The translations under genes and the position numbers were made by a program. From an uncultured Eudoraea sp. (GTDB lineage Bacteria; Bacteroidota; Bacteroidia; Flavobacteriales; Flavobacteriaceae): a DNA stretch of 64,000 nt. The notes beneath the pieces were generated by a model that was not told the origin of the DNA, made no database searches, and saw nothing but the letters and a program-made list of their open reading frames with translations. Below are positions 57,696 to 62,322 of the stretch, piece after piece; the stretch's first letter is position 1; every line of letters begins with the position of its first letter. The stretch is from the NCBI RefSeq assembly GCF_947490415.1, contig NZ_CANLGX010000004.1, positions 372,001 to 436,000 of the forward strand. Reading direction: 5' to 3'.

Positions 57696-58283
57696 ATGAA
57701 AAACACACTTGTAATTATCCTATTCTGTATAGGCTGTTTATCAACTTTTGCTCAAAAAAAATCCGGTATCGGCATTAAGGCCGGACTAAATTACAGTTCC
57801 AACGGGGATTACCTGGAGGATGTCAACGAAGCGATTCAAAATCCGGATGCAAATGTAGGTTATCACATTGGGTTTTATGGAAAATTGGGAGATAAATATT
57901 ATCTGCGACCAGAAGTGGTCTATACACACACAAAATCCGGTTATAACGATGGGGACCTTGTAATTGACAAATTGGATATTCCCATATTAGGCGGTTGGAG
58001 AATAATTGGTCCACTGAATATTTTTGCCGGACCGTCTTTTCAATACATTTTTAATTCAAAGTTCAGCGATATCACTATAGATAGTATAGAAAACGATTTT
58101 ACTGTTGGTCTGAATATTGGAGCAGGACTTAATCTGGGCAGAATAGGATTGGAAATACGTTATGAAACGGGTTTCGGTGAAAATATAGCCACTTTTATAA
58201 ATACAAACATTACCTCTTTACCTGAAAGCAGGGTAGATACCAGGGCTAATCAGGTTATTTTTAGTTTATCATTTTTATTCTGA
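57696..58283 (+). CDS. Outer membrane beta-barrel (porin family) protein
   Basis: Signal peptide; GIGIKAGLNYSSNGDY...; C-terminal aromatic VIFSLSFLF. Confidence 0.85.
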   Translation: MKNTLVIILFCIGCLSTFAQKKSGIGIKAGLNYSSNGDYLEDVNEAIQNPDANVGYHIGFYGKLGDKYYLRPEVVYTHTKSGYNDGDLVIDKLDIPILGGWRIIGPLNIFAGPSFQYIFNSKFSDITIDSIENDFTVGLNIGAGLNLGRIGLEIRYETGFGENIATFINTNITSLPESRVDTRANQVIFSLSFLF

Positions 58284-58303
58284 CCCATTAATCAACATAA
58301 TAA

Positions 58304-58331
58304 AAAAAGCCTGCAAAAATGCAGGCTTTTT
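58304..58331. terminator. Bidirectional terminator between convergent genes
   Basis: AAAAAGCCTGCaaaaatGCAGGCTTTTT. Confidence 0.85.
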
Positions 58332-58352
58332 TATTTGACATTATTCTTTCTA

Positions 58353-61491: not shown

Positions 61492-61564
61492 GACCTGGTA
61501 GCTCAGTTGGTAGAGCATCTCCCTTTTAAGGAGAGGGTCCTGGGTTCGAGCCCCAGCCAGGTCA
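61492..61564 (+). tRNA. tRNA-Lys(UUU)
   Basis: Cloverleaf by eye: GACCTGG/CCAGGTC acceptor, GCTC/GAGC D stem, TCTCC-CTTTTAA-GGAGA anticodon arm, CTGGG-TTCGAGC-CCCAG T arm; CCA not encoded. Confidence 0.97.
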
Positions 61565-61575
61565 CGAGAGAAAGT

Positions 61576-61605
61576 AAAACCCACCGAACAGGTGGGTTTT
61601 TTATT
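61576..61605 (+). terminator. Rho-independent terminator after tRNA-Lys
   Basis: AAAACCCACCgaacaGGTGGGTTTTTTATTTT. Confidence 0.85.
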
Positions 61606-61610
61606 TTGAA

Positions 61611-61677
61611 GGAAATCCAAGCTCGCTTGAGATTTCCGGAGAAATATAAAACGGCAAGCGTTAGCTTGCGTGGTTTT
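61611..61677 (+). repeat. Two stable stem-loops of unknown function
   Basis: GGAAATCcAAGctcgCTTgaGATTTCC (61611-61637); AAAACgGCAAGCgttaGCTTGCgtGGTTTT (61648-61677). Confidence 0.7.
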
Positions 61678-61683
61678 GCTTTT

Positions 61684-61738
61684 TGACCTTGGGGGCGCTG
61701 GGTCAGACGAGTGTAACGAGTCAACCCCAGCCAGGTCA
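61684..61738 (+). other. tRNA-Lys-derived acceptor/T-arm minihelix (truncated tRNA duplicate)
   Basis: TGACCTtGG..CTGGG[T..A]..CCCAG-CCAGGTCA reproduces tRNA-Lys acceptor 5' strand, T stem and 3' strand without D/anticodon arms. Confidence 0.7.
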
Positions 61739-61752
61739 ATTAGTGAGATGGA

Positions 61753-61782
61753 AATCCTGACAGCAACGTCAGGATTTTTTTA
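61753..61782 (+). terminator. Rho-independent terminator after the minihelix
   Basis: AATCCTGACagcaacGTCAGGATTTTTTT. Confidence 0.85.
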
Positions 61783-61806
61783 TGAAATAAAATCGGGGCG
61801 AGAAGC

Positions 61807-61826
61807 CTGCCTGCCGGCAAGCAGGT
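61807..61826. repeat. Palindromic CCTGCCTGCCGGCAAGCAGG element
   Basis: Near-perfect 20-bp palindrome. Confidence 0.6.
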
Positions 61827-61862
61827 TTATACCGAGTGCAGTCTAGGTAAGCCCCCGTCCGA

Positions 61863-62162
61863 ATGGCATTGACCCAATTTCAGGTGACTACTGAAACAAC
61901 AATGGAGGTCAACGCTTTAAAGAGCGATATGGGAGGAGTTGTATTGGCAATCGGTTTGATTTTATAGCTCTATTTCATCCAGGGAACAAAGTGGCTGTAT
62001 CCTGCTGCAATAGTGGCTTTTGCCATGTTATTTAGAAGGGTGGTCAGTCTTTTTGTAGATGGAGTTTCACAGGAAGCTTTATTGGCGACCTTTTAAGAGC
62101 TATTGGCAATAGCTGCTTTTCTATTTGTGGCTAAAAACTATTCAATCAATCACTCTTCATAG
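61863..62162 (+). pseudogene. 5'-truncated DUF4345-like integral membrane protein pseudogene with two in-frame stops
   Basis: Frame reads MALTQFQVTTETTMEVNALKSDMGGVVLAIGLIL*LYFIQGTKWLYPAAIVAFAMLFRRVVSLFVDGVSQEALLATF*ELLAIAAFLFVAKN; TAG 61965-61967, TAA 62094-62096. Confidence 0.75.
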
Positions 62163-62322
62163 CCGTTTGAATATGAAAACTACCTATTATTAAAGAAGGC
62201 GTTTCACTCCATAAAAAAGGTATAAATCTTTAACGAATTAGTATTTAATATGAGCAAAATCAGCAAACACTTAAGATAAGATTGGTTAAGGAATTTGTTG
62301 GTTAACCTCATTATTTATTGAA

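Follow-up and report, generated by a model that had tools for sequence, protein, structure and literature searches.

The E. coli tyrT operon has rtT repeats (Rfam RtT), tandem units of about 178 bp that follow a tRNA gene and each carry a copy of its 3′ end. The units described here likewise stand in tandem behind tRNA genes (tRNA-Ala, Ser, Val and Met), each with a tRNA 3′ end. They differ from rtT in that they show no sequence or Rfam match to it, occur at many tRNAs throughout an order and have a covarying fold in common. With integron attC sites they share a hairpin with a variable tip at the unit end and a reshuffled unit order, but they carry neither an attC consensus nor a linked integron integrase. 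A review (PMC5704250) describes how integrative elements, CIMEs among them, accumulate in tandem at the 3′ ends of tRNA genes. As in such accretion, a tRNA 3′ end is found at every border, the tRNA is intact, the outer elements are older and decayed, and tyrosine recombinases occur at the same tRNA, here in relatives. Unlike in CIME accretion (PMC5704250), the units are only 120-180 bp long, non-coding, and have one conserved fold across many tRNA targets. Serial accretion at tRNA genes is already known (PMC5704250); a small structured family on many tRNAs was not found in the resources searched. No Rfam family matched the unit above the gathering score, tRNA alone being matched and RtT giving no match, and no published description of the family was found in the literature searched, which was mostly open-access. 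Here we report that a tRNA-like minihelix behind tRNA-Lys of an uncultured Eudoraea sp. probably forms the distal border of a 174-bp element, one of a family of small, structured units at Flavobacteriales tRNA 3′ ends, in arrays grown by the arrival of units.

Anatomy of the locus behind tRNA-Lys

The window is the whole stretch of 64,000 nt that was analysed. A first-pass annotation had read a tRNA-Lys-derived minihelix in it. We located the parts of this minihelix as TGACCTtGG (61684-61692), CTGGGT (61698-61703), ACCCCAG (61724-61730) and CCAGGTCA (61731-61738). We confirmed its coordinates, the copied 3′ end, the T-arm-like hairpin, the missing D and anticodon arms and the terminator, and found the copy to be 14 nt long. 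This core, CCCCAGCCAGGTCA at 61725-61738, is identical to 61551-61564 at the end of tRNA-Lys, 174 bp away. It forms the 3′ arm and tail of a hairpin with CTGGGT as the 5′ arm, and downstream of it lies a terminator-like stem-loop, AATCCTGAC..GTCAGGATT (about 61753-61777), followed by a T-run. The T-loop consensus is gone, and neither ARAGORN nor Rfam called a tRNA at the minihelix, the sole call being the tRNA at 61492. An exact 14-mer has a chance of about 1e-6 of occurring within a few hundred bp. The identical 14-mer was found again at unit borders in several related genomes, and because of this recurrence a chance match was rejected. The minihelix is the distal end of a longer unit A, consisting of hairpin P5 and the core. 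The features are as follows.

61492-61565 (end at 61564/5), plus strand: tRNA-Lys(UUU), whose last 14 nt (61551-61564) are the source of the core
61566-61738, plus strand: unit A, a structured element from the tRNA 3′ end to the end of the core (174-bp repeat distance; R3 model, 96.6 bits at 61566-61691)
61570-61583, plus strand: 5′ strand of P1 (AAAGTAAAACC region), closing the multibranched fold
61576-61600, plus strand: P2, terminator-like hairpin of tRNA-Lys, terminator-like on the opposite strand too
61611-61637, plus strand: P3 hairpin (GGAAATCC..GATTTCC) with conserved tip AAGCTNGCTT
61654-61669, plus strand: P4 hairpin (GCAAGC..GCTTGC)
61672-61692, plus strand: 3′ strand of P1 (GGTTTTGCTTTTTGACC), continuing into TGACCTtGG, the arm first taken as acceptor strand
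61698-61730, plus strand: P5, T-arm-like hairpin CTGGGT..ACCCCAG with inner stem GAC/GTC
61725-61738, plus strand: core, reproducing exactly the final 14 nt of tRNA-Lys
61739-61857, plus strand: unit B, with a terminator (about 61753-61781), its own T-arm-like hairpin and a partly decayed distal border (GCCCCCGTCC for GCCCCAGCCAGG)

Directly 3′ of unit B, the stretch at 61860-62200 looks by eye like the remnant of a broken coding sequence. Elsewhere in the window, the R3 model gave a weak match (29 bits) on the minus strand at 58191-58340, which is intergenic and without a tRNA and is perhaps merely a bidirectional terminator.

Fold and covariation of unit A

Eleven A units, 60-93% identical, were aligned with MAFFT without the use of structure. 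Their consensus fold reached -44 kcal/mol, compared with -4.5 (sd 2.4) for shuffled columns, and compensatory double changes were observed in 23 of the 45 consensus pairs. The closing helix P1 is 92.6% paired and exceeded all 500 shuffles in every measure. Folding is better for the plus than for the minus strand (-44.0 versus -34.8), so that RNA or plus-strand DNA is the likelier folded form. Across 42 units at tRNAs, double changes were found in 34 of 36 pairs, in an alignment that was fitted to the model and so leans towards it. Conservation and compensatory change in relatives had been set beforehand as the test of the first-pass annotation, and both are strong. At this locus the minimum-energy fold has the TGACCTtGG arm extend P1 by pairing with the 3′ end of the tRNA itself and not with the copy. 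It is limited to a subset of copies, others carrying TTTGCAGNANGGG at the same place. The sequence proposed as a 5′ acceptor strand is present, but this detail of the first-pass reading did not stand.

The strong fold could reflect a role as host RNA. Unit A would then be a conserved non-coding RNA or a regulatory trailer of tRNA transcripts with a selected fold, and P5 would act in tRNA 3′ maturation, in termination or as a decoy. The consensus structure with its compensatory pairs, the preference for the plus strand, the performance of P1 against the shuffles and the fixed position at tRNA 3′ ends all fit such an RNA. On the other hand, P2 is a strong predicted terminator that precedes P3-P5, and therefore most transcripts should end before these hairpins are reached. 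Patchy presence, tandem copies, altered order and cargo suit mobility better, and the T-loop and acceptor features have been lost. Of the alternatives to an arriving element this one survives best, but on balance we regard it as rather unlikely.

Distribution of the family

A covariance model of P1-P4 of unit A, which contains no tRNA sequence, matched 85 of 201 Flavobacteriaceae genomes (E<=0.01) and 10 of 10 genomes of the genus, and a broader model matched 25 of 119 genomes of other families in the order (E<=1e-5), with E-values that are rough and a signal that is partly terminator-like. Position is therefore the better test. Among the inspected matches, 33 of 43 begin at a tRNA gene's 3′ end, to within about 7 nt, and the tRNAs carrying a unit there include Val, Arg, Tyr, Ser, Pro, Met and Lys. 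Tandem arrays with tRNA-3′-end borders were found behind tRNA-Ser, Val, Met and Ala. The tRNA-Lys form of P5 is patchy, being present in 10 of 201 genera. We also considered a dispersed REP-like hairpin and rejected it: the R1 model of P5 finds one copy in this genome, and wherever a tRNA was called near R1 loci of other genera, it was always tRNA-Lys.

Modular arrays behind tRNA-Lys in relatives

Relatives were collected via the neighbouring shikimate kinase gene, and they put the genome within or close to Eudoraea (Flavobacteriaceae). The variable stretch is bounded by tRNA-Lys and a conserved convergent sortilin-like gene (1053 aa), with the 14-mer marking the unit borders, and two short non-coding units, A (174 bp here) and B (122 bp), recur in it. 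The order of the units is tRNA-A-B here and in genome G001 and tRNA-B-A in G006; B-B-A in G007 and B-A in G009 were read from contigs that stop short of the tRNA. Contig G007:C191, one of the 14 rows in alignment A1, was given little weight because its sequence is common to G138:C43 and it may be mis-binned; the stretches L162 (G007:C191) and L190 (G138:C43) are almost identical in two genomes, so that one contig is probably mis-binned. Gene-bearing cassettes with the same kind of borders measure 2.6 kb in E. adriatica, 0.9 kb at locus L061 and 3.9 kb here. In this genome the tRNA 3′ end and its trailer also recur in decayed form (115 nt, 86%), 4,081 bp downstream and beyond the window. A direct repeat of the tRNA 3′ end flanks the inserted stretch on both sides, as in integrative elements.

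Core mismatches rise with distance from the tRNA (0, 2 here; 0, 1, 2, 3 in E. adriatica), as expected if units newly arrive beside it. Extra core copies match the local tRNA-Lys variant in four classes, hosts whose tRNA ends in CCCCAGTCAGGTCA, CCCCAGCCAAGTCA or CCCCAGCCCGGTCA carrying identical copies. A cassette starting with CTTTTTAAA directly follows the core in G009 and also in G064, which belongs to another genus, and this points to horizontal movement. Larger islands occupy the same tRNA-Lys in G002 (50 kb) and G069 (7.8 kb). Both end in the core, and in both the first gene after the tRNA encodes a tyrosine recombinase (Arm-DNA-bind_5, SAM_5, Phage_integrase). Beyond the island-end core of G002 lies the start of unit A. 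Tyrosine recombinases are present at the same tRNA in further genomes. At the locus studied here, no recombinase gene lies between tRNA-Lys and the distal core, and the tRNA-Lys array of this genome contains no GIY-YIG gene.

Copying of the cognate tRNA

To compare the copies with their neighbouring tRNAs, the longest match to a tRNA 3′ end was sought 100-300 nt downstream of the tRNA 3′ end. Summed over 30 loci, it amounted to 290 bases for the cognate tRNA versus 165.6 (sd 4.2) for other tRNAs, and without Lys to 202 versus 121 (sd 3.8), a few loci showing no excess over other tRNAs. Where the copy is clear, it begins on the 3′ side of the T-loop. It reaches 16-17 nt at the best loci (Arg-TCG, Arg-ACG and Pro-TGG), and many family members retain only its T-stem part. 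A model-free test over the 34 tRNAs of this genome gave 290 versus 210.5 (sd 10.9), with a permutation maximum of 265 (3000 permutations), one contributor being a true tandem tRNA-Glu; the antisense control of this test was null (205 versus 199). No tRNA is called at the 17-nt copies behind Asn, Leu-TAG, Phe and Ser-TGA or at the 14-nt copy behind Lys.

Origin of the units

Movement of the units is suggested by the changes of order, the host-matched cores, the shared cassettes and the integrase islands at the same site. In the scheme that we favour, the junction would lie at the 3′ side of the T-loop, with element sequence (P1-P4 and the 5′ arm of P5) upstream and host tRNA, from the 3′ strand of the T-stem to the discriminator base, downstream of it. 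An arriving unit would displace the old 3′ end outward and would leave the tRNA intact, because it supplies the 3′ end again and brings a terminator. Repeated arrivals would build arrays of units bordered by copies of the tRNA 3′ end, some with gene cargo. The units may move by site-specific recombination or homing, and the short ones would be non-autonomous or decayed members. Among the three ideas of the first-pass annotation, an att scar comes closest. The core is indeed a tRNA-3′-end border repeat of inserted or duplicated units, but a simple att scar neither needs nor explains a strongly conserved multibranched fold. In addition, at 120-180 bp the units are very small by the standard of conventional circular integrative elements, and neither a circular form nor gain or loss at strain level was seen.

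Folded units carrying a copy of the host tail sit on the tails of many essential tRNA genes throughout the order, in a family so far unannotated. They offer a natural series for asking how elements switch their tRNA target, and they raise the question whether folded non-coding DNA or RNA can spread as a parasite of minimal size or has come to serve the host. They are also a warning against taking tRNA 3′-end fragments in these genomes simply for decayed tRNAs.

Copies of tRNA 3′ ends could also arise by replication slippage. Slippage or unequal exchange would duplicate the tRNA 3′ end together with its trailer, and the tRNA body would be lost with no mobile element involved. Relatives commonly have tandem tRNA-Lys genes, partial copies lie next to tandem tRNAs at two loci (L036, L067), and near-identical tandem units occur. 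However, units behind different tRNAs have one structure and sequence motifs in common, so that the unit must have spread between tRNAs; unit order differs among related genomes; and the copy always starts at the same T-loop position. We consider local tandem duplication followed by decay still less likely than a host RNA. A lone decayed tRNA duplicate, as first suggested, was rejected: it leaves unexplained the conserved structured unit of about 130 nt before the core, the same layout behind many other tRNAs and the shuffled order.

It was also suggested that tRNA enzymes (CCA enzyme, RNase P/Z or EF-Tu) recognise the minihelix as a functional acceptor-plus-T-arm RNA. The exact tRNA 3′ end, the helix that can be drawn on paper and the terminator behind it agree with this. 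In an alignment of 14 copies of P5, pairing reaches 95% in the inner helix, where compensatory changes occur, but the outer acceptor helix is only 70% paired and not ancestral, one of its pairs being unpaired in 7 of the 14; compensatory upkeep of an acceptor helix stacked on the T-stem was not seen in these copies. The T-loop consensus is missing, and many members have kept the T-stem part alone. Since its acceptor stem lacks conservation, the minihelix is highly improbable as a working tRNA mimic.

An integron-like attC cassette system with tRNA-Lys as its primary site would account for the two-block stem with a variable loop, the cassette-like units and the integron-integrase-like recombinase that adjoins one array (L092), but we give it hardly any credence: no attC box consensus was seen by eye, the recombinase scores 196 bits, under the integron-integrase cut-off of 265 bits, and has other repeats beside it, and its homologues have other repeats but no P5 hairpins nearby. 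Close to this tyrosine recombinase (L092:1015-1968, minus strand; G008:C48), repeats of ATAACnnGTTGTG type surround a small gene. The genome studied here contains a truncated homologue (G000:C1:56571), and the two possibly belong to an integron-like system of Flavobacteriaceae.

GIY-YIG genes at tRNA genes

Small GIY-YIG genes (PF01541) were found within or beside units of the family. One lies inside a tRNA-Ser array (L253), and another between two tRNA-His 3′ ends, each followed by an identical terminator (L292). Others are directly upstream of tRNA-Asn, Asp and Pro, in several cases with 3′-end copies behind the tRNA, one such case being tRNA-Asn of the genome studied here. Among 42 inspected small GIY-YIG genes, 13 have a tRNA no more than 200 bp away, compared with 0.8% expected from the tRNA count of this genome; the related genomes are not independent, so that the binomial value serves as a rough guide only. 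SegB, a free-standing GIY-YIG homing endonuclease of phage T4, sits between tRNA genes (PMC2988022). The small GIY-YIG genes here adjoin tRNA genes as SegB does (PMC2988022), but they are chromosomal, stand beside structured units with tRNA-3′-end copies, and encode candidate nucleases for tRNA genes. GIY-YIG nucleases and tyrosine recombinases both occur in the surroundings of the family and are candidate movers of the short units. The question arises why small GIY-YIG genes cluster at Flavobacteriales tRNA genes. As a tentative extension, the family might be a new class of minimal mobile element, made of structured non-coding units of ~120-180 nt that home to tRNA genes and adopt the cognate T-arm and 3′ end as terminal hairpin. 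Such units might be mobilised by GIY-YIG endonucleases or integrases that are linked to tRNAs and act in trans, perhaps with an intermediate of RNA or single-stranded DNA, which would account for the covarying multibranched fold.

At one locus of this genome (L306, G000:C1:1094900-1096500), a GIY-YIG gene lies 5 bp upstream of tRNA-Asn, a B-like hairpin (GCTGGGTGAGAAGTTTAT) follows the tRNA, and an exact copy of the tRNA-Asn 3′ end is located 128 nt downstream. At a contig end (L307, G000:C7), a GIY-YIG reading frame between tRNA-Ser(GCT) and tRNA-Pro(TGG) runs into the tRNA-Pro gene. Palindromic inserts (e.g. CCTGCCTGCCGGCAGGCAGG and TCCGCCGAAGCCTGGAGGCGAAGGTGGA) were observed within the tips of P5 and B hairpins at four loci (L024, L025, L092 and L182).
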